A DNA stretch of 64,000 nt from Streptomyces globisporus. Lineage in GTDB: Bacteria > Actinomycetota > Actinomycetes > Streptomycetales > Streptomycetaceae. The stretch is taken from positions 1-64,000 of the forward strand of contig BMTG01000002.1 in assembly GCA_014649555.1 (NCBI GenBank), in the 5' to 3' direction. The notes under the pieces were generated by a model, which had not been told where the DNA came from, searched no databases, and was given only the letters and a program-made list of their open reading frames with translations. How positions within the stretch are numbered: position 1 is the stretch's first letter; every line of letters starts with the position of its first letter. This document shows, one piece after another, positions 30,558 through 64,000 of the stretch. The position numbers were made by a program, and so were the translations under genes.

Positions 30558-31202
30558 TCAGGTCGTGGCGACGACGAGCACGTCGAGGTGGCGGGGCCCG
30601 TGGACGCCTTCGACCCGGTTGAGCTCGATGTCGCTGCTGGCCGAGGGGCCCGAGATCCACGTCATGGGCCGGGTCGGGGACAAGCGTGCTACGGCCTGGG
30701 GAACCGACCCCACGATCTGCTGCTCGTACACGATGCAGATGTGGTGGTCGGGGACGAGGGTGAGTTTTCGGCTCCCTTGGTCCGGTTCCGCGTCAAGAAC
30801 GATCGTCCCGGTCTCGGCTATGGCGAGTGCGCATCCCGTGATCACGCTTCCGAAGGTGTCGAGGCGGCGAGCCGTGAGATCAGCGCTTTCCCGTTCGATG
30901 CTGCATCCGACCAGCTTGAGCAGATCGTCGGGTAGCCCTGGTGGCACGATCACGTACGCGGATTCGCGCTCCGCGACCAGACGCGCGACGAGCTCCGCAG
31001 CCCGGGCGGGGATGGTTCGGTGCACGGTGGCCTTGTATTCCTCCAAGGTCTGCACCAGCAGTGCCGTGGTCTCGGCGGGCGTACGGTCGCCGTGTTGGTG
31101 GGCGTAGGTCCGGGAGACCGGGTGCACAGGGTTGGCTTCTCCGTCCGGGCGGCTGCCCAGAGCCTGCCGGATGCGGTCGAGTACCTGCTGGCGATCGCTC
31201 AC
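30558..31202 (-). CDS. lutC: LutC-type LUD-domain protein (L-lactate oxidation)
   Basis: 214 residues from GTG 31202, overlapping lutB by four bases. The LUD fold is shown by SAYVIVPPGLPDDLL, CALAIAETGTIVLD and the C-terminal GPSASSDIELNRVEGVHGP, the typical LutC/YkgG ending. LutA, LutB and LutC form the iron-sulphur L-lactate oxidase complex that turns L-lactate into pyruvate. Its place at the end of a rhamnose operon fits lactate arising from lactaldehyde. Confidence 0.92.
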   Translation of the reverse strand: MSDRQQVLDRIRQALGSRPDGEANPVHPVSRTYAHQHGDRTPAETTALLVQTLEEYKATVHRTIPARAAELVARLVAERESAYVIVPPGLPDDLLKLVGCSIERESADLTARRLDTFGSVITGCALAIAETGTIVLDAEPDQGSRKLTLVPDHHICIVYEQQIVGSVPQAVARLSPTRPMTWISGPSASSDIELNRVEGVHGPRHLDVLVVATT

Positions 31203-32632
31203 TGGGCATCTCCCTTCTCTCCTTGCTGACGTTGCCACCAGTCGCGGAATGGCATGTCCGGCACCGGCGGCAGGTCGCGGCTGTCGGACCATGCCCGCCC
31301 GGGTCCGGGCAGGCGGGAGGGGTGCAGTCTGCGGGTGCGGGACGCCATGCGCTGGCCGGCGGCCAGCACGGCGGGGTGGTCGAAAGCCCAGGCTGCGGCA
31401 CTCATCGCCGCCCTCTCCAGCTGGTGCCCGCCTTGGTCGACGACCCGCTCCCGGAGGTGGACGAGGACTTCGGGAATGTCGATGGCGACGGGGCACACCT
31501 CGTAGCAGGCCCCGCAGAGGGAGGAGGCGTACGGCAGGGAGGCGTCGACTTCGCTCGTGGTGCCGCGTAGTTGCGGGGTGAGGATCGCACCGATGGGTCC
31601 CGGGTAGACCGAGCCGTACGCGTGGCCGCCGGCCCGTTCGTACACCGGGCAGACGTTGAGGCAGGCCGAGCAGCGGATGCAGCGCAGAGCTTGCCGTCCC
31701 ACCTCGTCGGCGAGGGTGTCGGTGCGGCCGTTGTCCAGGAGGACGAGGTGGAAGTTCTGCGGGCCGTCGCCGTCGGCGGTTCCGGTCCACATGGAGGTGT
31801 ACGGGTTCATCCGCTCGGCGGTCGAGGAGCGTGGAAGTGTCTGGAGGAACACCTCCAGGTCCCGCCAGGTCGGTACGACCTTCTCGATGCCCACGACGGA
31901 GATGAGGGTGTCGGGGAGGGTGAGGCACATGCGGCCGTTGCCCTCCGACTCGACGACGACGAGGGTGCCGGTCTCGGCGACCATGAAGTTGGCCCCGGAG
32001 ATGCCGACCTTGGCGCGCAGGAACTTCTCTCGCAGGTGCAGTCGGGCGGCTTCCGCGAGTTCGGCGGGCTCGTCGGTGAGGCCTTCTGGCGCCGGGCGCC
32101 CCCAGATCCCCATCCGGTCACGGAAGATGTCGCGGATCTCGCTGCGGTTGCGGTGGATCGCCGGTACCAGGATGTGTGAGGGGCGGTCGTCGCCGAGTTG
32201 GACGATCAGCTCCGCGAGATCGGTCTCGTACGCGGTGATGCCTTCGGCCGCCAGATGTTCGTTGAGCTCGATCTCCTGGGTGGCCATCGACTTGACCTTG
32301 ACGACCTCGGTTTCGCCGGTCGCTTTCACGAGGTCGGTGACGATCCGGTTGGCCTGGGCCGCGTCGGCAGCCCAGTGCACGGTCCCGCCCGCGGCGGTGA
32401 CCGCTTCCTCCAGTTGCAGCAGATAGATGTCCAGGTGCTGGAGGGTGTGGTCCTTGATCTGCTTGCCGGCCTCTCGGAGCTCGGCCCAGTCGTCGAGTTC
32501 GGCGACCGCTCTGGCCCTCTTGTCCCGGATCGTGTGTGTGGCATGGCGTAGGTTCGCCCTCAGCGTGTCGTCACCGAGTGCTTGACGGGCGGCCTCGGGA
32601 AACGCGGGCATGCCCAGGTAGGTGCCGCTCAT
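31199..32632 (-). CDS. lutB: LutB-type iron-sulphur LUD-domain protein
   Basis: 477 residues from ATG 32632, which overlaps the lutA stop (ATGA). An N-terminal LUD domain (about 60-290; VKVKSMATQEIELNEHL, ANFMVAETGTLVVVESEGN) is followed by a bis-[4Fe-4S] ferredoxin domain with CIRCSACLNVCPVY and LCGACYEVCPVAIDIPE. The C-terminus (RDWWQRQQGE) is typical of LutB. It is the electron-carrying core of the LutABC lactate oxidation complex. Confidence 0.95.
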   Translation of the reverse strand: MSGTYLGMPAFPEAARQALGDDTLRANLRHATHTIRDKRARAVAELDDWAELREAGKQIKDHTLQHLDIYLLQLEEAVTAAGGTVHWAADAAQANRIVTDLVKATGETEVVKVKSMATQEIELNEHLAAEGITAYETDLAELIVQLGDDRPSHILVPAIHRNRSEIRDIFRDRMGIWGRPAPEGLTDEPAELAEAARLHLREKFLRAKVGISGANFMVAETGTLVVVESEGNGRMCLTLPDTLISVVGIEKVVPTWRDLEVFLQTLPRSSTAERMNPYTSMWTGTADGDGPQNFHLVLLDNGRTDTLADEVGRQALRCIRCSACLNVCPVYERAGGHAYGSVYPGPIGAILTPQLRGTTSEVDASLPYASSLCGACYEVCPVAIDIPEVLVHLRERVVDQGGHQLERAAMSAAAWAFDHPAVLAAGQRMASRTRRLHPSRLPGPGRAWSDSRDLPPVPDMPFRDWWQRQQGEKGDAQ

Positions 32633-33384
32633 GTCAGGGGCTCGTCTTCCGTGCTGGCGAGGATCTCGGCGATGTGCAGGGGGCGGATGTCTTCGCCCTG
32701 TCGTCGGATGATGCCGCCGATGTGCATCAGGCAGGAGTTGTCTGCGGTGCACAACGCGGCTGCCCCCGTGGATACGGCGGCAGCGACTTTGTCACGGCCC
32801 ATGGATGCTGAGACGTCCGCGTTCTTCATGGCGAACGTGCCGCCGAAGCCACAGCATTCCTCCGCGCCCGGCAGCTCCATCAGCTCAAGGCCCTTCACCG
32901 CCGCGAGGAGCTGTCGGGGCCGTTCGCCGAGACCGAGACTGCGCAACCCGTGGCAGGTGGGATGGTAGGTCACCTTGTGCGGGAAGTACGCCCCCACATC
33001 GGTGACGCCGAGGATGTCGACGAGGAACTCGGTCAGCTCGTAGGTCACGGGAACGACCTTGGCGATGGCCTCGGCCAGCGAGGAACCTCGCCCTTCTGCT
33101 TCTGCCCGACGACCCATCCTCGGGTAGAGCTCGCGCACCATGGCGCCGCACGACCCCGAAGGCGTGACGATGGCGTCGTAGTCGGCGAAGGCGTCGGCGA
33201 ACCGGTGAGCGAGCGGTTCGGCCTGGCGCCGATAGCCGGTGTTGTAGTGCGGCTGGCCGCAACAGGTCTGTCCGAGCGGGAAGTCGACGTCGACGCCGAG
33301 CCGGTTCAGCAGTCGCACCACGGCGCGGCCTGTGCCGGGGTAGAGCGTGTCGTTGACACAGGTGAGGAAGAGAGCGACACGCAT
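32629..33384 (-). CDS. lutA: LutA-type CCG-domain iron-sulphur protein
   Basis: 251 residues. Two cysteine-rich CCG domains are visible: FPLGQTCCGQPHYNTG with the upstream LTCVNDTLYPGTG, and PGAEECCGFGGTFAMK with THTLY-like partner YHPTCHGLRSLG. These bind the noncubane [4Fe-4S] cluster found in LutA, GlpC and HdrB-type proteins. Third subunit of the L-lactate oxidation complex. It starts 84 bp after rhaB and is probably cotranscribed with the rhamnose genes. Confidence 0.94.
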   Translation of the reverse strand: MRVALFLTCVNDTLYPGTGRAVVRLLNRLGVDVDFPLGQTCCGQPHYNTGYRRQAEPLAHRFADAFADYDAIVTPSGSCGAMVRELYPRMGRRAEAEGRGSSLAEAIAKVVPVTYELTEFLVDILGVTDVGAYFPHKVTYHPTCHGLRSLGLGERPRQLLAAVKGLELMELPGAEECCGFGGTFAMKNADVSASMGRDKVAAAVSTGAAALCTADNSCLMHIGGIIRRQGEDIRPLHIAEILASTEDEPLT

Positions 33385-33468: not shown

Positions 33469-34920
33469 TCAGCCGGAGATCCGCCGGGCAGCGGCATCCC
33501 AGGCCGCTCGGTCGCCGGACGGTTCGTAGCGGTGCAGCGGCTGGCCGTCCGCCACCTGCTGCCGCATCTGGGGGACGTCGCCGACCAGGCCGAGAGCGCG
33601 GGCCTGGACGAGTACGTTGCCCAGGGCGGCCGCTTCCACCGGACCTGCGACGACGGGCAGGCCGGACGCGTCGGCGGTGAGTTGGCACAGCAGCCTGTTG
33701 CGGGCGGCGCCGCCCACCATGTGGATGACGTCGACGTGGCGGCCGGAGAGCTCCTGTGCCTGCTCGATCGCGCGCCGGTGGGCCAGCGCGAGGGAATCGA
33801 GGATGCACCGCGTGATCTGCCCGCGCGTGACCGGCTCGGGCTGTCCTCTGGCCGAGCACGCTTGTGCGATGCGTCGCGGCATCAGGCCCGGTGCGAGGAA
33901 GGCCGTGTCGGAGGCGTCGATCACCGACCGCAGACCCTTTACCGCGGCGGCCTCCCGCAGCAGTCCCACCACATCGTCATCGCCCCAGTCGCGCATGCAT
34001 TCCTGGAGCAGCCAAAGGCCCATGACGTTGCGCAGGTATCGCACGGTGCCGTCGATACCGGCTTCGTTGGTGAAGTTGGCCAGCCGGCTGGCCTCGGTCA
34101 GCACGGGTGCAGACAGCTCCAGGCCCACGAGTGACCAGGTGCCGGTACAGATGTAGGCGAAGTGGTCCTTGCGGCCGGCGGGCACCGCGGCGACGGCGGA
34201 GGCGGTGTCGTGGGACGCGACCGTGGTGACCGGTACCTGCCGCTGCCAGTTCAGTTGCTGGAGCACGTCCGGCAGCAGGGTGCCGGCCTTGTCGCCGGGG
34301 GCGCGCAGTGGGGCGAACAGGGTCAGGTCGATGCCGAGAGGGCGGGCGATGTCCTCGGCCCACGTTCCGGTGCTCGCGTCGAGCAGCTGGGTGGTCGAGG
34401 CATTGGTGACTTCTGTGCCCTGCTCGCCGGTCAGCCAGTAGCTGATCAGGTCAGGGATCAACAGCAGTCTTGAGGCGATCGACGCCTGCGCTGTGCGCTG
34501 CGCGGCGACAAGCTGGTAGAGGGTGTTGAACGGGGCGTGCTGGATACCGGTGCGGGCGTACAACTGCTCGGCGGGGACGGTCTGCCAGACCTGCTCCGGG
34601 ATGTCATCCGTGCGCGTGTCGCGGTAGTGGACGGGAGCGGAGAGCAGGTGGCCGTCAGCGTCAAGGAGGCCGTAGTCCACGGCCCAGCTGTCGACGCCCA
34701 CGCTGTCGACTTCCCCGGCTGCTTTCAGTCCGTCGAGGACCCCCGTGTAGAGGGCGTGGATGTCCCAGCGCAGGCCTTCGAGCAGACGGACAGGGCGGTT
34801 CGCGAACCGGTGGATCTCGGCGAGGTCGACCCGGCCGGCGGTGACGCGACCGGTGATGACGCGGCCGCTGCTGGCGCCGAGGTCGACGGCGGCGAGGACC
34901 GCGCTGTCGGTTGCCCTCAT
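33469..34920 (-). CDS. rhaB: L-rhamnulokinase
   Basis: 483 residues, FGGY/ASKHA sugar-kinase fold. Motifs: AAVDLGASSGRVITGRV (N-terminal phosphate loop), SVGVDSWAVDYGLLD (rhamnulokinase-specific), YRDTRTDD, ATIASHDTASAV-like TTVASHDTASAVAAVP, GTWSLVGLE and HMVGGAARNRLLCQL. It phosphorylates L-rhamnulose to rhamnulose 1-phosphate. The ATG overlaps the stop of the aldolase gene by four bases, so it is the third gene of the rha operon. Confidence 0.96.
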   Translation of the reverse strand: MRATDSAVLAAVDLGASSGRVITGRVTAGRVDLAEIHRFANRPVRLLEGLRWDIHALYTGVLDGLKAAGEVDSVGVDSWAVDYGLLDADGHLLSAPVHYRDTRTDDIPEQVWQTVPAEQLYARTGIQHAPFNTLYQLVAAQRTAQASIASRLLLIPDLISYWLTGEQGTEVTNASTTQLLDASTGTWAEDIARPLGIDLTLFAPLRAPGDKAGTLLPDVLQQLNWQRQVPVTTVASHDTASAVAAVPAGRKDHFAYICTGTWSLVGLELSAPVLTEASRLANFTNEAGIDGTVRYLRNVMGLWLLQECMRDWGDDDVVGLLREAAAVKGLRSVIDASDTAFLAPGLMPRRIAQACSARGQPEPVTRGQITRCILDSLALAHRRAIEQAQELSGRHVDVIHMVGGAARNRLLCQLTADASGLPVVAGPVEAAALGNVLVQARALGLVGDVPQMRQQVADGQPLHRYEPSGDRAAWDAAARRISG

Positions 34921-36959
34921 CGAAGGAAGGCCGGGGCGACACCCGCGTCGACGGGGATGTGCAGACCGGTGGTGTGGGTGAGGTCACCCGCGGTGAGGGC
35001 GAAGACCGCGTTCGCCACGTGCTCGGGCAGGACTTCCCGCTTCAGCAGGGTCCGCTGGGCGTAGAACTCGCCGAGCTTGTCCTCCTCGATGCCGTAGGTG
35101 GCTGCCCGCTGGGCACCCCACCCGCCGGCGAATATCCCCGAACCACGTACCACGCCGTCGGGGTTGACTCCGTTGACGCGGATGCCGTGCTGGCCGAGCT
35201 CGGCCGCGAGAAGGCGCACCTGGTGGGCCTGGTCTGCTTTGGTGGCGGAGTAGGCGATGTTGTTCGGGCCGGCGAAGACGGCGTTCTTCGAGACGATGTA
35301 GACGATGTCGCCGCCGAGGCCCTGCTCGATCATGAGCCGGGCGGCTTCGCGGGATACGAGGAAGGAGCCGCGGGCCATGATGTCGTGCTGCAGGTCCCAG
35401 TCCTTCGCGGTGGTCTCCAGCAGGGGCTTGGAGATGGAGATGCCGGCGTTGTTGACGACCAGGTCGACGCCTCCGAACGCGAGGACGGCCTCGCGGAACG
35501 CGGCGGTGATCTCTTCCTCGTCCGTGACGTTCATGGTGACGGCAACCGCCCGGTCCGGTCCGCCGAGTTCGTCCGCTACCGCTTCGGCGCTGTCCGTGTC
35601 GAGGTCCGCGACGATGACACAGGCGCCTTCGGCGGCGAGCCGGTGCGCGATCGCCTTCCCGATGCCGCTGCCGGCTCCGGTCACCAGGGCGACCCGGGTG
35701 GCGAGGGGCTTGGGCGGGGGCATGCGCCGCAGTTTGGCCTCCTCCAGCTCCCAGTACTCGATGCGGAACTTCTCGGACTCCTCGATCGGGGTGTAGGCGG
35801 AAACGGCCTCGGCGCCGCGCATCACGTTGATCGCGTTGACGTAGAACTCTCCGGCTACCCGGCTGGTCTGCTTGTCCTTGCCGAAGGAGAACATCCCCAC
35901 CCCGGGCACGAGGACGATCGCCGGGTCGGCTCCGCGCATCGCGGGCGAGTCGGCGGTCGCGTGCCGCTGGTAGTAGGCCGCGTACTGCTCGCGGTAGGCC
36001 GCGTGGAGCTCCTTGAGCCGCCGTACGGTCGTGGCCAGCGGTGCGGTGGGCGGCAGGTCCAGGACCAGAGGGGCGACCTTGGTGCGCAGAAAGTGGTCGG
36101 GACACGAGGTGCCGAGAGCGGCGAGCCGGGGATGCTCGGCGCGTGACACGAAGTCGAGGACGACCTCGCTGTCAGTGAAGTGTCCGACCTGAGGACGGTC
36201 CTGTGAGGCAAGGGCCCGGATGTGAGGGGCCAGGGCAGCGGCCCGCTCGTGGCGTTCCCTGACGGTGAGCGGCTCGTAGCCGTCGATCACCGGCCCGAAG
36301 GGCTCGGGTCGGCCACGGTCGGCGAGGAAGGCTTCGGCGGTGCGGATGATGTGCAGGGAGTTGTTCTCGCACTCTTCGGAGGTGTCGCCCCAGGCGGTGA
36401 TGCCATGGCCGCCGAGAACGCAGCCGATCGACTGCGGGTTCGCCGCCTTGACTGCGGCGATGTCCATCCCGAGCTGGAAGCCGGGGCGGCGCCACGGCAC
36501 CCAGACCACGCTGTCGCCGAAGCACTCGGCTGTCAGCTTCTCCCCGTCGGCAGCACAGGCGAGTGCGATGCCGGAGTCGGGGTGGAGGTGGTCGACGTGG
36601 GCCGCCTCCACCAGGCCGTGCATGGCGGTGTCGATGGAGGGGGCGGCGCCGGCCTTGCCGAAGGTGCAGTGGTCGAAAGCGGCAACCATCTCGTCCTCGC
36701 GGTCAACGCCCGGATAGACGTCCTTCAGAGCGCGAAGCCGGTCGAGCCGGAGCACGGCGAGACCGTCTTCGGTCAGGGTTCCCAGGTCGCCGCCTGATCC
36801 CTTGACCCACAGCAGGTCAACCTCTGCACCGGTGACGGGATCAGCCCCGGCTCCCTTTGCCGACGTGTTCCCGCCGGCGTAGTTCGTGTTGCGGGCATCG
36901 GAGCCGAGGCGGTGCGAACGCTTCAGCAGATCGGAGGCGTGGCGGCGGACGGAAGACAT
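34917..36959 (-). CDS. Bifunctional rhamnulose-1-phosphate aldolase / lactaldehyde dehydrogenase (RhaEW type)
   Basis: 680 residues from ATG 36959, preceded by AGAAGG at six bases; ATG 36965 is too close to that site. Residues 1-400 are a class II aldolase domain (NTNYAGGNTSAKG, GKAGAAPSIDTAMHGLV, DHLHPDSGIALA, GGHGITAWGD). Residues about 425-680 are a short-chain dehydrogenase (VTGAGSGIGKAIA, VNNAGIS, YSATK). In bacilli and actinobacteria this fusion splits rhamnulose 1-phosphate into DHAP and L-lactaldehyde and oxidises the latter to L-lactate. The neighbouring lutABC genes would consume that lactate, supporting the assignment. Confidence 0.95.
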   Translation of the reverse strand: MSSVRRHASDLLKRSHRLGSDARNTNYAGGNTSAKGAGADPVTGAEVDLLWVKGSGGDLGTLTEDGLAVLRLDRLRALKDVYPGVDREDEMVAAFDHCTFGKAGAAPSIDTAMHGLVEAAHVDHLHPDSGIALACAADGEKLTAECFGDSVVWVPWRRPGFQLGMDIAAVKAANPQSIGCVLGGHGITAWGDTSEECENNSLHIIRTAEAFLADRGRPEPFGPVIDGYEPLTVRERHERAAALAPHIRALASQDRPQVGHFTDSEVVLDFVSRAEHPRLAALGTSCPDHFLRTKVAPLVLDLPPTAPLATTVRRLKELHAAYREQYAAYYQRHATADSPAMRGADPAIVLVPGVGMFSFGKDKQTSRVAGEFYVNAINVMRGAEAVSAYTPIEESEKFRIEYWELEEAKLRRMPPPKPLATRVALVTGAGSGIGKAIAHRLAAEGACVIVADLDTDSAEAVADELGGPDRAVAVTMNVTDEEEITAAFREAVLAFGGVDLVVNNAGISISKPLLETTAKDWDLQHDIMARGSFLVSREAARLMIEQGLGGDIVYIVSKNAVFAGPNNIAYSATKADQAHQVRLLAAELGQHGIRVNGVNPDGVVRGSGIFAGGWGAQRAATYGIEEDKLGEFYAQRTLLKREVLPEHVANAVFALTAGDLTHTTGLHIPVDAGVAPAFLR

Positions 36960-37048
36960 GAGCATCCTTCTGGAACGGGCGGGAGGGCGGGGCGGCAGGT
37001 GAGGAGCCGCGATGGGCCGAATGAACGCCGGCGCGCGAGGGCGTGGGG

Positions 37049-38218
37049 TCAGGCACCCCAGCCGGCCTGCTCGCCACCGACTCGCTCGGCGGCGGTCTTC
37101 TCGGACCAGCCGGATGCGGCGTACGCGGCGACGGGATCGGCGGTCAGGCCCGCCTCCTCGCGTACCTCACGCAGGAGCGGGCGTACATCGGTGGCGTAGG
37201 CGTCCATCAGGACGGCGTTGGCGGCGAGCACGTCTCCGGTCCGCTGAGCGGACGCGAGAGCGTCGTGGTCGACCAGGAGAGCCTTGGCCGTTGCCTCCTG
37301 CACGTTCATCACCGAGCGGATGACCGCTGGGACTTTCGCCTCGATGTTGTGGCACTGGTCGAGCATGAACGCGATCCCGGTCTCCGCCGCCAGTCCCCCG
37401 CCCCGGATCACCTCGTACATGATTCGGAAGAGCTGGAAGGGGTCTGCGGCACCGGCCATCAGGTCGTCGTCCGCGTAGAAGCGCGAGTTGAAGTCGAAGC
37501 CCCCGAGCCGCCCCTCGCGCAGCAACAGGGCCACGATGAACTCGATGTTCGTGCCCGGTGCGTGGTGCCCGGTGTCGACGACCACTTGCGCTTTTGGGCC
37601 CAGCTTGAGGCAGTGGGCGTACGCGGTGCCCCAGTCCGGGACATCGGTGGTGTAGAACGCCGGCTCGAAGAACTTGTACTCCAGCAGGATCCGCTGATCC
37701 TCGCCGAGGCGCGCGTACACCGTGGCGAGGGACTCGGCCAACCGCTCCTGCCGGGCGGAGACATCGTCCTGACCGGGGTAGTTGGTGCCGTCGGCGAACC
37801 AGAGCTTGAGGTCCGACGAGCCGGTCGCGTCCATGATGTCGACGCACGCCAGCAGGTGGTCCACGGCGCGGCGTCGCACGTGCGCATCCGGGTGGCAGAC
37901 GCTGCCCAGCTTGTAGGCATCGTCCTGGAAGGTGTTGGCGTTGATGGCACCGAGCCTCAGGCCATGGTCTTCGGCGTACGCGGCCAAGGCCGCGTAGTCC
38001 TCGACCTCGTCCCAGGGGATGTGCAGCGAGACCTTGGGCGCGACACCGGTGAACTCGTGCACCTTCGCCGCATCCTCCAGCTTCTCCCACGGCGTGCGCG
38101 GAACGCCGGGCTGGGCGAACACCTTGAAGCGAGTCCCGGAGTTCCCATAGCCCCAGGAGGGTGTCTCAATGGTCTGGGCCCTGAGCGTGGCCTTTACGGC
38201 CTCCCGCACGACAGTCAT
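37049..38218 (-). CDS. rhaI: L-rhamnose isomerase, RhaI type
   Basis: 389 residues from ATG 38218, preceded by GAGG at six bases. An in-frame extension to 38305 would run through the operator and is not used. It is a TIM-barrel isomerase: ALAAYAEDHGLRLGAINANT, SSDLKLWFADGTNYPGQDD, LEYKFFEPAFYTTDVPDWG, VVVDTGHHAPGTN and LGGFDFNSRFYADDD supply the metal and substrate residues known for the Pseudomonas-type RhaI. It converts L-rhamnose to L-rhamnulose, first step of the operon, with its gene first in order. Confidence 0.95.
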   Translation of the reverse strand: MTVVREAVKATLRAQTIETPSWGYGNSGTRFKVFAQPGVPRTPWEKLEDAAKVHEFTGVAPKVSLHIPWDEVEDYAALAAYAEDHGLRLGAINANTFQDDAYKLGSVCHPDAHVRRRAVDHLLACVDIMDATGSSDLKLWFADGTNYPGQDDVSARQERLAESLATVYARLGEDQRILLEYKFFEPAFYTTDVPDWGTAYAHCLKLGPKAQVVVDTGHHAPGTNIEFIVALLLREGRLGGFDFNSRFYADDDLMAGAADPFQLFRIMYEVIRGGGLAAETGIAFMLDQCHNIEAKVPAVIRSVMNVQEATAKALLVDHDALASAQRTGDVLAANAVLMDAYATDVRPLLREVREEAGLTADPVAAYAASGWSEKTAAERVGGEQAGWGA

Positions 38219-38259
38219 GGTCAACCTCGGAACCTGGGGCGCCGCGTCGACGCCGTTGA

Positions 38260-38271: not shown

Positions 38272-38326
38272 TAAATAAGAGAACACTTGCGGCGAGGCCC
38301 GTCAAGAGGATGCGGTTGACAATTAA

Positions 38327-38338: not shown

Positions 38339-38342
38339 ACAC

Positions 38343-55479: not shown

Positions 55480-56790
55480 GTGCCCCATCGCATGATCCGC
55501 GCTCGCCGTACTCGCCTGACCCTCTTGTCGGCCGGGGTAACCTCCCTGGCTCTTCTGGCTTCCGCTTGCGGCGGCGGTGGCACCTCCGCGGCGCCCAAGG
55601 AGTTCAAGTACCTCAGCGTCACCGAGAACACGACCACCAGAACGGCACTGACGAAGCTTTCCAAGGGCTCCTGCAAGGCCGAGAACGACACCCTGCCGCT
55701 GAAGGTCGAAACCGTGCCTCAGGCGAGTCTGGACCAGAAGCTCCAGCTGCTCGCCGGCCAGGACGCGCTGCCCGCCCAGTTCGCCGCCGGCAATGCGCCC
55801 GCGCTCACCAAGCAGCTGGCCGAGTCCGGCAAGGTGGCCAACCTGGATCTCGAACTCGAGCGGCTCGGCGTCTTCGACGATCTCGAGCCCGCTGCCGTCT
55901 CCACCATCAAGGCCCTGTACGACGGCAAGGTGCAGACGCTGCCCTACGAGTACAACATCGAGGGAATCTTCTACAACAAGAAGATTTTCAAGGAGAAGGG
56001 TATCGAGGTCCCCGGCACCTGGGACGAATTGATCGCGGCCTCGGACAAGCTCAACAACGAGCGCGTCCAGCCCTTCGCCGCCTCCGGCCAGCAGGGCTGG
56101 CCGATCACCCGCCTCATCAGCGGGTACCTCTACCGGAGCCTTGGCCCCGGCGCCCTGGACGACGTGAACACCGGCCTCGCCCAGCTGACCGAGCCCGAGT
56201 ACGTCAAGGCCGCCGAGGAGATCGCTGCCCTCGGCAAGAAGGGCTACTTCGGCAAGGGTGTCGGCTCCATCGACTACGACACGGCGATGAACCAGTTCCT
56301 CACCGGCAAGTCCGCCATGTTCTACATGGGCAGCTGGGCCCTGGCCAACATCTCTGACCCCAAGCAGAACAAGGTCGGTGCCGACAACGTCGGCTTCATG
56401 CCTTTCCCCGCCGTCACCGGCGGCGCCGGCTCCGCCGACCAGTACCCCTCCAACGTGGGCCTGGCCGTCACCCTCGGCTCGAAGAACTTCGACAAGAAGA
56501 CCGACGCCTGGGTGCGCTGCATCGCCAAGAACTACGGCAGCACCGCGCTCAAGGACCACGGCTCCATCTCCGGCTTCAAGGTCAACACGCCGGTCAAGGA
56601 CGCCAACGAGGTCACGACCACCGTACGCAAGACGATCAGCTCCTCCCAGCAGAACGTCCTGTGGTTCGAAGCGTTCTTCAGCACCAAGGCGACCACGGCC
56701 AGCCAGACCAACGCCGCCGGACTCGTCACCGGCAGCGTGAGCCCCAAGCAGTTCATGGAGACCGTCCAGAGCGCACTCAAGAGCAAGTAG
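55480..56790 (+). CDS. ABC sugar transporter substrate-binding lipoprotein
   Basis: 436 residues from GTG 55480 behind GGGAG; ATG 55492 is an alternative. A lipoprotein signal peptide (RRTRLTLLSAGVTSLALLAS) ends at the cysteine of LLASACGGG. The mature protein is a family 1 extracellular solute-binding protein: KLQLLAGQDALPAQFAAGN, LPYEYNIEGIFYNKKIFKEKG, GTWDELIAASDKL and FYMGSWALANI. It captures an oligosaccharide or glycoside at the cell surface for the two permeases that follow. Next to an alpha-L-rhamnosidase, a rhamnose-containing glycoside is the best guess. Confidence 0.94.
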   Translation: MPHRMIRARRTRLTLLSAGVTSLALLASACGGGGTSAAPKEFKYLSVTENTTTRTALTKLSKGSCKAENDTLPLKVETVPQASLDQKLQLLAGQDALPAQFAAGNAPALTKQLAESGKVANLDLELERLGVFDDLEPAAVSTIKALYDGKVQTLPYEYNIEGIFYNKKIFKEKGIEVPGTWDELIAASDKLNNERVQPFAASGQQGWPITRLISGYLYRSLGPGALDDVNTGLAQLTEPEYVKAAEEIAALGKKGYFGKGVGSIDYDTAMNQFLTGKSAMFYMGSWALANISDPKQNKVGADNVGFMPFPAVTGGAGSADQYPSNVGLAVTLGSKNFDKKTDAWVRCIAKNYGSTALKDHGSISGFKVNTPVKDANEVTTTVRKTISSSQQNVLWFEAFFSTKATTASQTNAAGLVTGSVSPKQFMETVQSALKSK

Positions 56791-56882: not shown

Positions 56883-57767
56883 ATGCACCGCGTACTCGGT
56901 GACCGCAGGGCGATCATGATCCTGCTCGGTCCCGCACTCCTCGTCTACACCCTGATCATGCTCGTCCCCACGGTGTGGTCGCTCGGGTACTCCTTCACCA
57001 AGGGCAACTCCATCGACGGCTTCACCGGCAACGGTCTGGCCAACTTCACCAGGCTCTTCTCCGACCAAGCCGTCCACGACGCCCTCTGGTTCACCGTGAA
57101 GTACGCGGTCCTCGTCACCGTCGGCCAGGTCATCGCCGGCTACCTCCTGGCCCTGCTCTACGTCTTCTTCCTCAAGAAGGCGTCCGCGCTCATCCGCACC
57201 CTGGTCTTCTTCCCGGTCGTCCTGCCCACCGTCGCCGTCGGCCTGCTCTTCCAGAAGTTCTTCCAGGTCGCCCCCCAGACCGGCCCCGTCAACTCCCTGC
57301 TCAACACCTTCGGCCTGGAGTCCGTAGACTTCTTCGGCAGCGCGGGAAGCGCCTTCTGGGTGCTGGTCAGCATGGACATCTGGCGCTCCATGGGCTTCTA
57401 CGCCGTACTCCTGTTCGCCGGCCTCGTCGACATCCCCGACGAGGTCCTCGAATCAGCCCGCCTCGACGGCGCTTCCGGCCCTCGCCTCATTCGCCATATC
57501 GTCCTGCCGCTCTCCCTGCCCGTCCTCATGTCCTCCTTGATCTTCAGCATCAACGGCACCCTGAAAGTCTTCGACTCCGTCGTCGCCCTCACCAACGGCG
57601 GCCCCGGAACCGGCACCACCCCGCTGACCCTGTACATGTTCCAGACGTCGTTCACCTACAGCGAGTACGGCTACGGCAGCACCATCGCGCTGCTCCTCAC
57701 CGTCGTCTGCCTTCTGGTGAGCCTGGCGGTCTACCGCGTCTCTCGACGCGACATCACGGAGGGCTGA
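56883..57767 (+). CDS. ABC sugar transporter permease 1 (MalF/LacF type)
   Basis: 294 residues from ATG 56883, six hydrophobic helices. The EAA loop that contacts the ATPase reads DEVLESARLDGASGPRLIRH, followed by IVLPLSLPVLMS; GGPGTGTTPLTLYMFQTSF is typical of the CUT1 group. It is 92 bp downstream of the binding protein and 5 bp before the second permease. Confidence 0.94.
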   Translation: MHRVLGDRRAIMILLGPALLVYTLIMLVPTVWSLGYSFTKGNSIDGFTGNGLANFTRLFSDQAVHDALWFTVKYAVLVTVGQVIAGYLLALLYVFFLKKASALIRTLVFFPVVLPTVAVGLLFQKFFQVAPQTGPVNSLLNTFGLESVDFFGSAGSAFWVLVSMDIWRSMGFYAVLLFAGLVDIPDEVLESARLDGASGPRLIRHIVLPLSLPVLMSSLIFSINGTLKVFDSVVALTNGGPGTGTTPLTLYMFQTSFTYSEYGYGSTIALLLTVVCLLVSLAVYRVSRRDITEG

Positions 57768-57772
57768 ACGTC

Positions 57773-58675
57773 ATGGCCATCGAAACTGCCCTCAAGCCCG
57801 CTTCCCCCGGACACAGGCGCACCAGACACCAGAACCGCAACTCCGTCCGCAAGGCGAGCGGCCGTCTCTGGATCAAGATCGCCGTAACCTTCCTGCTGGT
57901 CATCGAGGTCTACCCACTGATCTGGATGTTCCTCACGTCGCTGAAGTCCAACAGCGACTACCTCAACAACTCCACCTGGAGCCTTCCCACCACCTGGGAG
58001 TGGGGCAACTACACCGAAGCCTGGACCACAGGCAACATAGGTCTCTATGTCCAGAACAGCCTGCTGGCCGTCGTCCCCACCCTGGCCCTCATCCTGCTTC
58101 TCGGCACCGCGGCCGGATTCGCCCTGCAGATCATGGTCTGGAAGGGCCGAAGCCTGACCCTCCTGGTCTTTCTCGCAGGAATGATGGTTCCGCCGCAGAT
58201 GATTCTGCTGCCCCTGTTCACCGTCTATTTCCAGGCCGGCCTCTCCGGGACCCTGTGGCCGCTCATCCTCACCTACACGGGCACGGGCCTCCCGTTGACC
58301 GTATTCATGATGGCCACCTATTACCGAACCGTGCCCCGAGAGCTGTTCGAAGCGGCAACTCTCGACGGGGCCGGGATTCTGCGTGCCTTCTGGACCATCA
58401 GCATGCCGATGGTTCGCAACGCACTGCTCACGGTCGGGCTGGTGCAGTTCTTCTTCATCTGGAACGACCTCCTCATCGCCCTCACCTTCACCAACAGCCA
58501 GGATCTGCGCACCATCCAGGTCGGCCTGCTGAACTTCACCGGCGACTTCGGCGCCACCCAGTACGGCCCGCTGTTCGCGGCCATCTGCATCAACGTTTTC
58601 GGCACACTCGTGATCTACCTCTTCCTCAACCAGAAGGTCATGAAGGGCCTCACTTCAGGAGCGGTCAAGGGCTGA
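57773..58675 (+). CDS. ABC sugar transporter permease 2 (MalG type)
   Basis: 300 residues from ATG 57773. EAA loop: RELFEAATLDGAGILRAFWT, then SMPMVRNAL; the final QKVMKGLTSGAVKG is the standard CUT1 MalG-like ending. No ATP-binding subunit gene is present in the cluster; in Streptomyces such importers commonly share the MsiK ATPase encoded elsewhere. Confidence 0.94.
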   Translation: MAIETALKPASPGHRRTRHQNRNSVRKASGRLWIKIAVTFLLVIEVYPLIWMFLTSLKSNSDYLNNSTWSLPTTWEWGNYTEAWTTGNIGLYVQNSLLAVVPTLALILLLGTAAGFALQIMVWKGRSLTLLVFLAGMMVPPQMILLPLFTVYFQAGLSGTLWPLILTYTGTGLPLTVFMMATYYRTVPRELFEAATLDGAGILRAFWTISMPMVRNALLTVGLVQFFFIWNDLLIALTFTNSQDLRTIQVGLLNFTGDFGATQYGPLFAAICINVFGTLVIYLFLNQKVMKGLTSGAVKG

Positions 58676-58716
58676 ATCACCCCTCCTCACTCCCGAGCAC
58701 ACGAAAGGTCCCTTCC

Positions 58717-61305
58717 TTGCAGTCCCTCCAGCCCTCCCCGGTGCGCTTCGAGCATCTGCCGGACGGCCTCGGCATCGGTACCAACTCGCCCCGCCTGTCC
58801 TGGACCTCCGCGCCCGAAGCCGGAGATCAGCACGCCTACGAAGTCGAGCTTCGCCGAGACGACCGACTCCACCGCACGGGCCGTATCACCGCATCCGACC
58901 ACCTGCTCGTACCTTGGCCCGACGAACCGCTCAGATCACGCGAGCGCGTCGCCGTGCGCGTGCGCACCTGGTCGACGGAAGGCGGCGCGCCCTCGCCGTG
59001 GAGTCGGCCCGCTGTCGTCGAGGCCGGCCTGTTCGAGCCGGGTGACTGGACTGCTCTCCCCGTCGGTGCCGCCTGGCAGGAGGACCCTGCAGCCGAACGC
59101 CGCCCGGCCCGCGTCCGTAAGCACTTCCAAGCGGACGACAAGCCGGTCGAGCGCGCCCGGCTCTACATCACCGCCCATGGTCTGTACGAGGCGGAGATCA
59201 ACGGGACCCGAGTCGGTGACGAAACCCTGGCACCCGGCTGGACCGTCTATCAACATCGTTTGCGCTACCGCACCTACGACGTCGCCCCCCTCCTCACCTG
59301 CGGCACCAACACCATCGGCGCCTGGCTCGCGGACGGCTGGTACCGCGGCAAATACGGCTTCGACGGCGGCACACGCAACATCTACGGCACCGACCAGTCC
59401 CTCATAGCCCAACTCGAGATCACCTACACCGACGGAACCAGCACGGTGGTCGCCACCGACCACACCTGGCACGCCGCCTTCGGCCCCATCCTGACCAGCG
59501 GCCTGTACGAAGGCGAGACGTTCGATGCCCGGCTGGACGACCCGCACTGGGCCGCTCCGAGCGCGCCCCAGGACAGCTGGACACCCGTACGGGTCGGAAG
59601 CCGAGACCCCAGGACACTGGTCGCGCCCGAAGGTCCCCCGGTCCGGTGCACCCAGGAAATCGCTCCTGTGTCCGTCACCCGCACCTCCGACGGCCGACAC
59701 CTGCTCGACTTCGGGCAGAACCTGGTGGGCCGTCTACGGATCACCGCGGAGGGACCGGCCGGCGCCACCCTCACCTTCCGGCACGCAGAGGTCCTCCAGA
59801 ACGGAGAACTCGCCACCCTCCCCCTGCGCGAAGCGCACTCCACGGACATCCTCGTCCTGCCGGGCAACGGTCCCTATACGTGGGAACCTCGCTTCACCCT
59901 CCACGGCTTTCGCTATGCCGAGATAAGCGGCTGGCCCGGCGAGCTCGCCCCGCATGCCGTAACCGCGCGCGTCCACCACACGGACATGCGTCGCACGGGC
60001 TGGTTCGAGTGCAGCGATCCCCTGGTCAACCGCCTCCACGAGAACGTCCTGTGGAGCATGCGAGGCAACTTCGTCGACATCCCGACCGACTGCCCTCAGC
60101 GCGATGAGCGCCTTGGCTGGACCGGAGACATCCAGGTCTTCACCCCCACCGCAAGCTTCCTCTACGACTGCGCCGGCATGCTCAACTCCTGGCTCACCGA
60201 CGTGGGCAAGGAACAGCTCCCGGACGGCACCATCCCCTGGTACGTGCCGGTCATCCCCGGCAATCCGATGTGGACCCCGATCCAGCCGGGAGCCGCCTGG
60301 GGAGACGTCGCCACCCTCACCCCCTGGGCCCTGTACCAGCGCTTCGGTGATCTCGAACTTCTACGGCGTCACTACCCCATGGCCAAGGCGTGGGTCGACC
60401 TCGTCGAGAAGCTCGCCGGCCCCGAGCGACTCTGGGACACCGGGTTCCAACTAGGGGACTGGCTCGACCCGGCCGCCCCACCGGATGACCCCGCCGCCGG
60501 CCGCACCGACCGCCACCTCGTCGCCACCGCCTACTTCGCCCACTCCACCCGGCACCTCGCCCGTGCCGCCCAAGCGCTGGGCCGTACAGGCGAAACAGAT
60601 CGGTACGACACACTCGCCGACGAAGTCACCACGGCGTTCCGACGACGCTACGCCCAACCCGACGGCCGCCTCTCGAGCGACAGCCCCACCGCATACGCCC
60701 TCGCCATCGTCTTCAACCTTCTCAAGACCACACAGCGTGTGGCGGCTGGCGACCGTCTTGCCGAACTCGTCCGCCAGGACGACGCGCGCATCGCCACAGG
60801 CTTCGTCGGGACCCCTCTCATCTGCGACGCACTGACGGCTACCGGCCACCTCGACAGCGCCTACCGTCTGCTCCTGCAGACCGAATGCCCGTCGTGGCTC
60901 TACCCCGTCACCATGGGCGCCACCACCATCTGGGAACGCTGGGACAGCCTCCGCCCGGACGGAACCCTCAACCCAGGCGGCATGACCTCCTTCAATCACT
61001 ACGCTCTCGGTGCGGTCGCCGACTGGCTCCACCGAGTCGTCGGAGGCATCGAGGTCACAGCGCCGGGCGCTGCCACACTTGCCTTCCGACCCCGCCCCGG
61101 CGGCGGCATCACGTGGGCCCGCACCCGCCATGAGACGCCCCACGGAACCGCCGCGATCTCCTGGCAAACCACTCCGGCCGGCATCAAAGCCCAGATCACC
61201 GTGCCCCCGAACTGCACAGCACTTGCCGAGCTGCCGGGCTACGCAGCCCAAACTCTCGGCCCCGGCACGCACATATTCCCTCAAGGAAATAGCAGAATCG
61301 ACTGA
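58717..61305 (+). CDS. Alpha-L-rhamnosidase, glycoside hydrolase family 78
   Basis: 862 residues from TTG 58717, chosen for GAAAGG upstream and because the next codons lead into VRFEHLPDGLGIGTNSPRLS, the usual GH78 start. The N-terminal beta domains (GLYEAEINGTRVGDETLAPG, LADGWYRGKYGF) precede the (alpha/alpha)6 barrel with the catalytic acid region DCPQRDERLGWTGD and the second conserved glutamate in TTIWERWDSL. It removes terminal alpha-L-rhamnose. No signal peptide is visible, so it acts in the cytoplasm on imported rhamnosides. It is cotranscribed with the ABC importer, and free rhamnose would feed the rhaI operon. Confidence 0.94.
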   Translation: MQSLQPSPVRFEHLPDGLGIGTNSPRLSWTSAPEAGDQHAYEVELRRDDRLHRTGRITASDHLLVPWPDEPLRSRERVAVRVRTWSTEGGAPSPWSRPAVVEAGLFEPGDWTALPVGAAWQEDPAAERRPARVRKHFQADDKPVERARLYITAHGLYEAEINGTRVGDETLAPGWTVYQHRLRYRTYDVAPLLTCGTNTIGAWLADGWYRGKYGFDGGTRNIYGTDQSLIAQLEITYTDGTSTVVATDHTWHAAFGPILTSGLYEGETFDARLDDPHWAAPSAPQDSWTPVRVGSRDPRTLVAPEGPPVRCTQEIAPVSVTRTSDGRHLLDFGQNLVGRLRITAEGPAGATLTFRHAEVLQNGELATLPLREAHSTDILVLPGNGPYTWEPRFTLHGFRYAEISGWPGELAPHAVTARVHHTDMRRTGWFECSDPLVNRLHENVLWSMRGNFVDIPTDCPQRDERLGWTGDIQVFTPTASFLYDCAGMLNSWLTDVGKEQLPDGTIPWYVPVIPGNPMWTPIQPGAAWGDVATLTPWALYQRFGDLELLRRHYPMAKAWVDLVEKLAGPERLWDTGFQLGDWLDPAAPPDDPAAGRTDRHLVATAYFAHSTRHLARAAQALGRTGETDRYDTLADEVTTAFRRRYAQPDGRLSSDSPTAYALAIVFNLLKTTQRVAAGDRLAELVRQDDARIATGFVGTPLICDALTATGHLDSAYRLLLQTECPSWLYPVTMGATTIWERWDSLRPDGTLNPGGMTSFNHYALGAVADWLHRVVGGIEVTAPGAATLAFRPRPGGGITWARTRHETPHGTAAISWQTTPAGIKAQITVPPNCTALAELPGYAAQTLGPGTHIFPQGNSRID

Positions 61306-61760: not shown

Positions 61761-64000
61761 GTGAACCGACGCACCTTCCTGTCCTCCGCCATCGCCACCG
61801 CACTCGCCGTCAGCATGGCCCCCACCGCCAACGGTCAGGCCATCGCCGCGACCGATCCCCGCGCCTTCGACCGCGCCGACGCTCTTCTCGCCCGGATGTC
61901 CGCTGCCGACAAGGACGCCCTCATCCGGTGCGACTTCGCGGCCCTCAGCCACCTCGGTATCCCCGCCCTCACCATGGTCGACGCCTCCGCCGGGCTGCGT
62001 GGCGAACAGAACGTCACCGCGTTCCCGGTCCCCCTCGCCCAGGCCGCCACCTTCGACGAGGACCTGACGCGCCGTATCGGGGTCGCCATCGGCACCGAGG
62101 GACGCGCCAAGGGGTACAACAGCCTCCTCGGGCCGACCATCGATCTGACGCGGACCTGGCACTTCGGGCGCCAGGCCGAGAGCCTGGGAGAAGACCCGTT
62201 CCTCGCGGGCCGCCTCGGCGCCGCCCTCACCACCGGCATGCAGAGCCGTCAGGTCACGGCCACGGTCAAGCACTTCGCGGCCTACACCCAGGAAGTGAAC
62301 CGCTTCTTCAGCGACACCCTGGTGTCCGACCGCGCGATGCACGAGATCTACCAAGCGCCCTTCCGCCGCGTCATCGCGGCCGCGCCCACCACCTCGGTCA
62401 TGATGGCCTATCCCAAGATCAACGGGACCTTCGCCACCCAGAGCCCCACCCTCTTCAACGACGTCAAGTCCCGTCTCGGCCTTCAGGGTTACACCGTCCC
62501 TGACTTCTGGGCCGGCGACGACCAGGTAGCTGCCGCCAAGGCGGGCATGGACCTCGCGGGGCTCGGCCCCGGCGGCGTCAAGCTCGTACCCGGTGAGGTC
62601 GCTCGCAGCGTGTCCACCGCACGGCTCGATGATGCCGCACGCCGCATCCTCGTCACCATGTTCGCCAACGGCCTCATGGACAACCCGGTCCCGGCGCCGG
62701 CTCAAGACGTCAGCACCGCCGAACACAAGAGCCTCGCCCACGAAGCAGCCCTCGCCTCCACCGTGCTGCTGGCCAACCGTTCCTCAGCCCTGCCTCTGCC
62801 CACCAGGCTCAGGTCGCTCGCCGTCATCGGGCCCGCCGTAACTGATGCGCTCACCGGCGTCGCCGGCTCCACCTACGTCGACCCTGGCACTTGGACCACT
62901 CCCCTGCAGGCCATCAAGACCCGCGCCGGCAGCGGCATCACCGTCACCCACGCCCAAGGCACCACCGGCGACGTCCCCCTCAGCACCGTTCCCTCCAGCG
63001 TGCTGCGCACCACCGGTAAGGCCCCCGGCCTCACCGGCCGCTACTACGCCTCCCCCGAGCCCACCGGCACACCGGTCGCCACCCGCACCGACACTGTCAT
63101 CGACTTCACCAGCACTCCGGTCGACACCCTTCCCGCAGTCTGGTCCGCGACCTGGTCAGGCACGCTGACCCCGACGCACAGCGGCCTGCACCGCTTCTCC
63201 CTCCTGGCCGCGGGCACCGCCACCCTGAAGATCAACGGCGTCACCGTAGTCACCGGATCCCGTGGCACACGACGTTTCTTCCTCGGCACGTACGACTATC
63301 CCCTCCAGGGCACCATCGACCTGGCCGCGGGCAGAACCGTGTCAGTCGAACTCACCTACAGCAACGCCACCGCCGACCCCGGCACCAGCGGCCTCACCCT
63401 CGGCTGGCAGCCCGGATCCCTGATACCTGCCGCCGTCCAGGCCGCCACCAAGGCCGAGGCCGCCGTCGTCTTCGTCAACCGCATCGCCGGCGAAGCCATG
63501 GACCACGAACAGCTCACCCTCCCCGGGGACCAGAACCAGCTCATCACCGCCGTCGCCGCCGCGAACTCCCGCACCATCGTCGTCCTGAACACGGACGGCC
63601 CCGTCGCGATGCCCTGGCTGAACGACGTCGAGGCCGTCATCCAGACCTGGTACGGAGGCCGCGGCATGGGCACCGCCCTCGCGGCCGTCCTGTTCGGCGA
63701 CAGCGACCCCTCGGGCAGGCTGCCCATCACCTTCCCCACCGACGCCTCTCAAGGCCCCGGCACAACGACGGCGACGTACCCGGGCAAGAACGGCACCGTC
63801 TCCTTCGACGAGGGAACCGCCATCGGCTACCGCTACTACGACACCAAGGGGCAGCAACCCAAGTTCCCCTTCGGGCACGGCCTCTCCTACACGACCTTCG
63901 CCCACGGCTCCCCCGAAGCCTCCTACAGTGCCGCCAGCAGGACCGTGGCCCTCTCCGTCACCGTCACCAACAGCGGTAACCGCCCAGGCACCGAGGTCGT
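61761..64000 (+). CDS. Glycoside hydrolase family 3 (beta-glucosidase-like), exported, 3' end outside window
   Basis: About 746 residues are visible from GTG 61761 (GGAGAG upstream), continuing past the right edge. A Tat-like signal peptide starts MNRRTFLSSAIATALAV. The GH3 N-terminal barrel shows LGPTIDLTRTWHFGRQAESLGEDP (given here in part), VKHFAAYTQE and MAYPKINGTFA; the nucleophile aspartate is probably in GYTVPDFWAGDD, where most GH3 enzymes have VSDW. A PA14-type insert lies about residues 425-560 (GLTGRYYASPEPTG). The C-terminal GH3 domain has LPITFP and FPFGHGLSYTTF, then a fibronectin-like domain begins. It would remove beta-linked glucose from plant glycosides outside the cell. Confidence 0.9.
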   Translation, partial: MNRRTFLSSAIATALAVSMAPTANGQAIAATDPRAFDRADALLARMSAADKDALIRCDFAALSHLGIPALTMVDASAGLRGEQNVTAFPVPLAQAATFDEDLTRRIGVAIGTEGRAKGYNSLLGPTIDLTRTWHFGRQAESLGEDPFLAGRLGAALTTGMQSRQVTATVKHFAAYTQEVNRFFSDTLVSDRAMHEIYQAPFRRVIAAAPTTSVMMAYPKINGTFATQSPTLFNDVKSRLGLQGYTVPDFWAGDDQVAAAKAGMDLAGLGPGGVKLVPGEVARSVSTARLDDAARRILVTMFANGLMDNPVPAPAQDVSTAEHKSLAHEAALASTVLLANRSSALPLPTRLRSLAVIGPAVTDALTGVAGSTYVDPGTWTTPLQAIKTRAGSGITVTHAQGTTGDVPLSTVPSSVLRTTGKAPGLTGRYYASPEPTGTPVATRTDTVIDFTSTPVDTLPAVWSATWSGTLTPTHSGLHRFSLLAAGTATLKINGVTVVTGSRGTRRFFLGTYDYPLQGTIDLAAGRTVSVELTYSNATADPGTSGLTLGWQPGSLIPAAVQAATKAEAAVVFVNRIAGEAMDHEQLTLPGDQNQLITAVAAANSRTIVVLNTDGPVAMPWLNDVEAVIQTWYGGRGMGTALAAVLFGDSDPSGRLPITFPTDASQGPGTTTATYPGKNGTVSFDEGTAIGYRYYDTKGQQPKFPFGHGLSYTTFAHGSPEASYSAASRTVALSVTVTNSGNRPGTEV

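Follow-up and report, generated by a model that had tools for sequence, protein, structure and literature searches.

A probable catabolic island for rhamnosylated phenolic glycosides in Streptomyces, joining a rhamnosidase and its importer to aromatic ring-cleavage genes

The stretch of DNA analysed here, referred to throughout as the window, comprises 64,000 nucleotides, the opening 64 kb of contig C2 in a Streptomyces genome of 8.2 Mb; its second half carries genes for rhamnoside uptake and hydrolysis, rhamnose breakdown and aromatic ring cleavage, which probably form a catabolic island for a rhamnosylated phenolic glycoside. Reading from the left, lutC-lutB-lutA-rhaB-rhaD-rhaI lie on the minus strand and are followed by a LacI-family regulator, LacIa, on the plus strand. 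The middle is occupied by twelve genes, all on the minus strand, in the order FAHg-GDO-3HB6H-CoTB-CoTA-SDR-FAH2-EDO-amidohydrolase-FMO-cyclase-FAH3 (FAH, fumarylacetoacetate-hydrolase family; GDO, gentisate 1,2-dioxygenase-like; 3HB6H, 3-hydroxybenzoate 6-hydroxylase-like; CoT, 3-oxoacid CoA-transferase; SDR, short-chain dehydrogenase/reductase; EDO, extradiol dioxygenase; FMO, FAD monooxygenase). To the right stand a LysR-family regulator and a major facilitator superfamily (MFS) transporter on the plus strand, a second LacI-family regulator, LacIb, on the minus strand and then, again on the plus strand, a solute-binding protein (SBP), two permeases, a GH78 rhamnosidase and a GH3 glycosidase. 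The original prediction, made by reading this DNA alone, had named a rhamnoside importer with GH78, an exported GH3, a rhamnose operon extended by lutABC and an aromatic operon with a transporter, and profile matches place every one of these modules where it was claimed to be.

The rhamnose operon is of the actinobacterial type, with RhaI, RhaB and RhaD/RhaEW encoded in a single operon. The L-rhamnose isomerase rhaI (37049-38305) matches TIGR02635 at 647 bits (cut-off 531) and rhaD/rhaEW (34917-36965), a rhamnulose-1-phosphate aldolase fused to a dehydrogenase, matches TIGR02632 at 1088.6 bits (cut-off 568), both above threshold; the rhamnulokinase rhaB (33469-34920), which has FGGY domains, scores 457.6 bits with TIGR02627, below the cut-off of 528. 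Behind it lie lutA, the cysteine-rich iron-sulfur subunit (32629-33384; Pfam CCG, 130.7 bits), lutB, the L-lactate oxidation iron-sulfur protein (31199-32752; TIGR00273, 456.7 bits, above the cut-off of 445), and the LUD-domain gene lutC (30558-31202; Pfam LUD_dom, 78.6 bits), whose real start, judged by eye, is near 31202 within a longer open reading frame (ORF). These three adjacent genes constitute LutABC, LutA and LutC being assigned by domain alone. The predicted extension of the rhamnose operon is present, but it adds no weight to the case for an island, since lutABC often follows the rhamnose operon in Streptomyces (13 of 21 further loci, namely 20 regions that we picked and the genome's own second copy), and it was rejected as a sign of special design. 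The second rhaI, on contig C3, is 82% identical and stands beside another, more distant GH78 (43%); its operon (L031) is without lutABC.

The aromatic operon, which runs from 39512 to 51321 and has the twelve genes predicted for it, carries two ring-attack pairs, FMO with EDO, and the 3HB6H-like with the gentisate-dioxygenase-like enzyme. FMO (48201-49496) is a PRK06847-type monooxygenase (NF005313, 453.9 bits, above the cut-off of 372) whose ORF is overlapped by a longer one in the amidohydrolase frame and probably has too long an N-terminus. EDO (46245-47186), a two-domain extradiol dioxygenase of the VOC family, scores below the cut-offs of both TIGR02295 (126 bits) and TIGR03211 (124 bits); its best solved relative is 3b59 and its closest named relatives are from Streptomyces. 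The amidohydrolase between them (47200-48204) is of the ACMSD decarboxylase type (solved relatives 4ofc and 2wm1, E 2e-48), which suggests a decarboxylation following ring opening, although the more distant solved relatives listed for it include the ring-fission hydrolase 6e6i/5vn5, known as LigY. Around these genes are FAH2 (45091-46122; Pfam FAA_hydrolase, 179.4 bits) and FAH3 (50323-51321; FAA_hydrolase, 227 bits), a PF04199 cyclase/hydrolase (49370-50344; Pfam Cyclase, 75.7 bits; solved relative 5ibz, E 2e-55), the SDR-family dehydrogenase (44351-45090, start approximate; Pfam adh_short_C2, 190.4 bits) and both CoA-transferase subunits, CoTA (43470-44225; TIGR02429, 247.7 bits) and CoTB (42820-43470; TIGR02428, 332 bits), each above its cut-off. 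The gentisate arm consists of the flavoprotein 3HB6H (41472-42692; NF006021, 399.7 bits, below the cut-off of 459), the bicupin GDO (40412-41680; TIGR02272, 347.5 bits, below the cut-off of 442) and FAHg (39512-40375; FAA_hydrolase, 206.6 bits), probably the ring-fission hydrolase of this arm. Quercetinase as the identity of the cupin gene was rejected, since the bicupin scores as a gentisate dioxygenase. The MFS transporter (52597-53826; Pfam MFS_1, 146.7 bits), which matches that of an FMO-EDO cluster in Sphingomonas sp. R1 at 37% (blastp), probably serves aromatic uptake.

The sugar side opens with the SBP (55378-56790, start codon uncertain; Pfam SBP_bac_1, 95.3 bits), which is of the lipoprotein type with a lipobox, LASAC, recognised by eye, and which together with two sugar-type permeases (56883-57767, Pfam BPD_transp_1, 75.1 bits; 57766-58675, NF040932 and NF008210 matches within the ORF 56975-58675; both starts approximate) makes up a carbohydrate ABC importer; no ATPase gene was among the ORFs scanned between LacIb and GH3. 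The GH78 alpha-L-rhamnosidase (58700-61305, start approximate) has the complete domain set of its family (five Pfam domains; best solved relative 6gsz, E 2e-239), and the GH3 glycosidase with a PA14 insert (61761-64000; Pfam Glyco_hydro_3, Glyco_hydro_3_C and PA14) continues 235 bases past the window, to C2:64235. As judged by eye, GH3, which has a GTG start and begins MNRRTFLSS, is Tat-like, no signal peptide is seen in GH78, and only GH3 and the SBP have the look of export, so that import before rhamnose release would be the simplest order. A secreted GH3 is unable to take off a glucose that is capped by rhamnose, and its role would therefore lie with an outer sugar or with a different glycoside.

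Each part of the island has a divergently transcribed regulator: LacIa opposite rhaI (38169-39413, real start inside the ORF), the LysR protein opposite the aromatic operon (51420-52364; Pfam LysR_substrate and HTH_1) and LacIb opposite the importer (54183-55283), both LacI proteins having the Pfam domains LacI and Peripla_BP_3. In the gap between rhaI and LacIa (38260-38338) lie two RhaR-type palindromes, TGAATCGTTTCA (38260) and TGAAAGGATTCA (38327); sites of the TGAAWCGWTTCA type, of which two were found against 0.05 expected, are confined to this gap within the window, and similar RhaR-type sites occur at rhaI of seven other mapped island rhamnose operons and of the C3 copy. The operon has, in short, the LacI regulator and predicted promoter site that characterise actinobacterial rhamnose operons. 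A candidate LacIb operator, AGAACGTTCT (55382-55391), is placed at the start of the SBP gene as the sole exact copy in the window; of the 27 other importer blocks mapped, 8 have an exact copy in the corresponding position and 19 do not. A palindrome search in nine kinds of upstream region, drawn from up to 26 mapped stretches, brought out separate sites only, as did motif scans; an island-wide LacI operator was accordingly rejected, and separate control of the units is supported by these predicted sites. Two LacI regulators and one LysR regulator are present as the original prediction had it, and the staged induction that it drew from them goes no further than being compatible with the data, each LacI-type site standing at its own divergent promoter.

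Absence of conserved linkage in other genomes had been named beforehand as one outcome that would refute the island, and linkage was found in both sets of genomes compared. Across 121 genomes sampled evenly from the genus, an EDO orthologue (at least 83% identity) is present in 31 and the window-type GH78 (at least 72%, the next best being 60%) in ten, nine of which have EDO too; the importer-GH78 block stands beside the EDO core, at a distance of 13 kb or less, in seven of these nine, four of the seven being close relatives (G000, G115, G056 and G019). An EDO scan of a species collection, from which the best 80 of 462 loci were kept, recovered the same core, LysR and FAH3-cyclase-FMO-amidohydrolase-EDO-FAH2(-SDR), in nearly all 80 named loci. 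Whole-genome GH78 searches covered 50 of these loci (48 genomes), picked to include every locus with a visible importer block, and 19 of the 48 genomes carry a window-type GH78 (at least 70%; G141 is counted through two pieces). In 15 of the 19 the LacIb-SBP-permease-GH78 block was mapped beside the core, which, as the loci were chosen, is not an unbiased rate; the seven of nine from the even sample is fairer, and small. The two sets overlap in S. cyaneofuscatus (G056 = G122, mapped via the sample copy G056), and the whole-genome searches score some candidates per genome (seven for GH78, 15 for 3HB6H), so that misses are possible.

At least five island gene orders can be distinguished, the block alone occupying three positions relative to the core. 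The first is that of the window, with or without the rhamnose operon; in S. populi the block is placed as in the window, the rha-lut operon is convergent to CoTB and the gentisate arm was not seen; the block is to the CoTB side in S. longisporoflavus, whose GH3 is to the LysR side; in S. durocortorensis (G129) an inverted block lies beyond GH3 and the gentisate arm; and in G053 both the block and GH3 are on the SDR side. The least constant member of the island is the rhamnose operon. RhaI is found in 77 of the 121 sample genomes, of which only four (that of the window, G115, G056 and G019) have it within 10 kb of EDO; in the next closest case, G077, the distance is about 60 kb. The window order, with rha beside FAHg, occurs in seven mapped genomes only, the window genome, G019, G115, G056, S. 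exfoliatus, S. filamentosus and S. omiyaensis. Some of these islands have features of their own. That of Streptomyces sp. NBC_01237 is carried by a linear replicon of 1.6 Mb that its record calls a plasmid (L117, NZ_CP108509.1 1257183-1298121); the importer block of S. durocortorensis (L136) is flanked by two GH78 genes, of 70% and 57%; and in S. phaeoluteigriseus (G141; L142-L143) the matches to both the linked GH78 and the cyclase are split in two, possibly through a frameshift or an assembly error, and a second GH78 (~54%) lies on the opposite side of the core.

Inheritance and repeated assembly were weighed on a FastTree phylogeny of the concatenated core, built from 89 stretches (80 named loci and nine others), one of which was dropped to leave 88 rows. 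L043 and L111 were labelled by hand from maps, the unlinked rows of named loci show at most 10 kb either side of the core, and the truncated L100 and L108 must carry some paralogue pieces in the tree. Among the rows, the amidohydrolase is present in 88, FMO and FAH2 in 87 each, the cyclase and FAH3 in 86 each, LysR in 85 and SDR in 71. Adjacency of block and core changes at least 10 times on this tree, against 15-21 times for 200 shuffled labels; it is partly inherited and has partly been gained or lost many times, gain and loss being inseparable by such a count. Of the 21 block-linked rows, 17 have the gentisate arm beside the core, against 0 of the 67 others, and a 3HB6H orthologue occurs in seven of the 121 sample genomes, all of them among the ten with a window-type GH78 (Fisher p 2e-9, a value that treats genomes as independent and overstates the case). 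For the rhamnose operon the corresponding counts beside the core are 8 of 21 and 0 of 67. In a tree of RhaI, RhaD and RhaB (29 loci), the window-clade operons do not join those of S. exfoliatus, S. filamentosus, S. omiyaensis and S. populi, and a single clade for the eight island operons is rejected (approximately unbiased test, p 4.8e-71; posed after low RhaB identity had been seen). Either rhamnose operons would have been placed beside the core at least twice, or one would have been exchanged in situ for a divergent copy.

Outside the genus, Nonomuraea gerenzanensis has the core (EDO 79%). A record titled Microtetraspora glauca (L113; EDO 92%) has a core 81-92% identical to that of the window, possibly as a recent transfer or a misnamed record. 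On a plasmid of Arthrobacter sp. StoSoilB13 (L172), FAH3, cyclase, FMO, amidohydrolase and FAH2 form one group; amidohydrolase and FAH2 have no EDO between them and the EDO upstream is a distant one (22%), which may reflect an enzyme replacement.

More distant sets occur in sphingomonads. Novosphingobium sp. EMRT-2 has relatives of EDO (47%), FMO (36%), FAH3 (44%) and amidohydrolase (45%) together, and on plasmids of Sphingomonas aliaeris and Novosphingobium resinovorum GH78, GH1 and TonB genes lie beside an FMO-EDO-cyclase-FAH set, GH78 being, across the record start, ~18 kb from FMO-EDO in the former and ~9 kb in the latter (FMO 36-40%, EDO 42-44% and GH78 36-37% to the window). Like the window, these two plasmid sets have GH78 beside FMO, EDO, cyclase-family and FAH genes; they differ in belonging to another phylum, in having TonB receptors, GH1 (and in one also GH2) where the window has GH3 and an alpha/beta hydrolase where it has the amidohydrolase, and in that no rhamnose operon is annotated in the stretch. 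The S. aliaeris plasmid (NZ_CP061037.1; L173, L174), with GH78, GH1, GH2, TonB receptors, LysR and FMO-EDO-P450-cyclase-FAH, is by its gene content a separate putative rhamnosidase plus aglycone cluster, and that of N. resinovorum HR1a (NZ_CP128493.1 across the record start; L177, L169) has LysR, a ring-hydroxylating oxygenase subunit, GH78, GH1 and TonB, together with FMO-EDO-hydrolase-cyclase-FAH-epimerase-cupin in the same stretch. Among the matches listed, four plasmid records have both FMO and GH78; the two are close in S. aliaeris and N. resinovorum and hundreds of kilobases apart on the plasmids of Sphingobium V4 and Novosphingobium RL4. The FMO match of Bradyrhizobium elkanii lies among transposase genes, with no EDO annotated within ~10 kb, and the stretch of R. 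rhizogenes K84 has an annotated catechol 2,3-dioxygenase and no annotated rhamnosidase.

The claim at the centre of the original prediction, one sugar-plus-aglycone unit, is well supported by the conserved linkage, by the several gene orders in which it is found and by a gentisate arm that appears only together with the window-type GH78. From the genes present we infer the following enzymatic steps, along with the class of substrate and the direction of transport. The lipoprotein-dependent ABC importer would take up the rhamnoside, either intact or after trimming, since an outer beta-linked sugar may be removed by the secreted GH3, and the cytoplasmic GH78 would release rhamnose, which RhaI, RhaB and the RhaD/dehydrogenase fusion would convert to dihydroxyacetone phosphate and L-lactate, with LutABC then taking lactate to pyruvate. 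The aglycone would enter the cell or already be inside; FMO would hydroxylate one of its rings to a catechol, EDO would open the catechol ring, FAH2, FAH3, the ACMSD-type amidohydrolase, the cyclase-family hydrolase and the SDR would process the ring-opening product, and the CoA-transferase would activate a 3-oxoacid. The 3HB6H-GDO-FAHg arm would cleave a second ring, or another aromatic fragment, via gentisate, and LacIa, LacIb and LysR would exert separate control over the three parts. A still fuller version, in which this is a complete actinobacterial pathway for two-ring phenolic rhamnosides with both rings opened, assembled more than once in Streptomyces and convergent in sphingomonads, is one that we entertain tentatively and with rather more doubt than belief.

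Several observations weigh against the island. Two of the nine sample genomes holding both genes show no linkage, with GH78 and EDO 188 kb apart in G109 and EDO on another contig in G070, where LysR, SDR and the gentisate arm adjoin the GH78 block. Four of the 19 named genomes likewise show none: the genes are ~164 kb apart on the same contig in G133 and on different contigs in G128 and G134, and in G149 EDO is at a contig end, where linkage cannot be judged. In six of the ten genomes with a window-type GH78 rhaI is solely elsewhere, and GH3 was not seen in the linked stretches of G163 and G141 and is displaced in G166 and G129. The scans gave no operator common to the three units, and neither LacI-type site is at the window's aromatic operon. 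By independent pairs, which allow for relatedness, the association of the gentisate arm is marginal (5-6 of nine pairs concordant, none opposed, median p 0.03) and that of the rhamnose operon is not significant (1-2 of nine, none opposed). The annotated cyclases of the sphingomonad sets are without a sequence match to that of the window. Finally, the EDO core appears without the block in 67 of 88 rows, and its native substrate therefore need not be a glycoside.

What the aglycone might be is best approached through the systems already described. In the fde cluster of Herbaspirillum seropedicae SmR1, which acts on naringenin, an FAD monooxygenase hydroxylates the flavonoid A-ring and extradiol cleavage follows, according to two accounts (PMC8552027, PMC11303751). 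The window has the same succession of monooxygenase and extradiol enzyme and adds to it the sugar modules and the gentisate arm. A LysR-type regulator is a further likeness, that of fde being FdeR. Our comparison set for fde was a group of Massilia genes, called fde-like as FMO, VOC and Rieske genes stand together in it, and not authentic fde sequences. The window EDO shows ~35% over 137 of 313 residues to the Massilia VOC (not authentic FdeC); the other VOCs compared give 42-68% (seven of them) and 28-34% (two). No Rieske domain, and hence no FdeD partner, is found among the twelve operon genes, and filing the operon under fde was rejected on this absence and on an EDO that leans away from the fde-like one. 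In the isoflavone cluster ifc of Variovorax V35, FMO IfcA and EDO IfcB begin A-ring catabolism and the cupins IfcD1/D2 act next; compared by description only, ifc shares the FMO-EDO pair with the window and differs in its cupins and in that the part of the account available names no rhamnosidase or rhamnose genes for it (PMC11069340).

On the sugar side, the actinobacterial RhaR regulons combine rhamnose catabolism through the bifunctional RhaEW with the ABC transporter rhiLFG and rhamnosidases, and the window resembles them in RhaEW, ABC importer and rhamnosidase; the portion of that study available describes no join to aromatic-ring catabolism (PMC3870299), and the window's importer has its own LacI protein and candidate site. 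With the gentisate and 3-hydroxybenzoate pathways the window probably shares the hydroxylase and gentisate dioxygenase types and an FAH-family hydrolase, its enzymes differing in scoring below equivalog cut-offs and in lying within a larger operon that has a second ring-cleavage system. What is new in the island is how known modules are combined; it does not represent a novel kind of system.

A flavonoid aglycone is plausible, and we regard flavonoid and non-flavonoid as about equally likely. A real island acting on a phenylethanoid, phenylpropanoid, anthraquinone or other rhamnosylated phenolic has a chance only a little short of even. The usual flavonoid B-ring is 4-hydroxy or 3,4-dihydroxy, for which a gentisate arm is unexpected, and this mismatch, like the missing Rieske partner and the distance of the EDO from the fde-like one, favours the non-flavonoid alternative, as do the settings of two close EDO relatives, one (68%) beside an MhpA-type hydroxylase in Corynebacterium occultum and one (66%) beside a ring-hydroxylating dioxygenase in Rhodococcus sp. 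USK13. The FMO points the other way, its family being shared with the fde-like Massilia set (40%, not authentic FdeE) and with sphingomonad FMO-EDO clusters (36-38% to three of their FMOs), two of which have a rhamnosidase and GH1. The best clue is the pairing of gentisate arm and GH78, by which the rhamnosidase product seems to yield a 3-hydroxybenzoate-like or salicylate-like fragment.

That the modules instead serve separate plant substrates, such as pectin rhamno-oligosaccharides and simple hydroxybenzoates, and are neighbours only as plant-litter functions cluster on chromosome arms and linear plasmids, is unlikely. It would account for the many cores without a block, for LacI-type sites each at its own promoter and for the island on the linear replicon of NBC_01237; loose clustering would not, however, explain why one block recurs by one core in several orders, or why the gentisate-arm hydroxylase is found only in genomes with the window-type GH78. 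Contiguity by chance and common descent within one small clade is very improbable, for although the window order with rha beside FAHg is so narrowly distributed and the labels cluster on the tree, descent from one accident would not be expected to give different gene orders or to set rhamnose operons of two distinct clades next to the core.

Rhamnosides of flavonoids and other phenolics are plant products that occur commonly in soil. For A-ring aglycone pathways the described examples come from Proteobacteria (fde, ifc), and rhamnosidases have mostly been treated as enzymes on their own; if the island acts as we propose, a contiguous sugar-plus-aglycone route in Streptomyces links the two and names genes to test, and the pairing of one rhamnosidase clade with the gentisate arm is testable and offers a pointer to the substrate. 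A literature search by title and abstract start, with subscription journals mostly outside its coverage, found no description of such a cluster.

The surroundings of the island offer a few further observations. The window has no tRNA and no Rfam match at gathering score, and beyond GH3 the single named product among ten ORFs scanned is an SDR. About 1 kb off the lutC end lies an IS4/5-family transposase (DUF4096 and DDE; 28630-29547), possibly a boundary scar of the island. The gene next to the transposase, at 25840-28011, encodes a FUSC/aromatic-acid-exporter-like membrane protein that might relieve aromatic acid stress.

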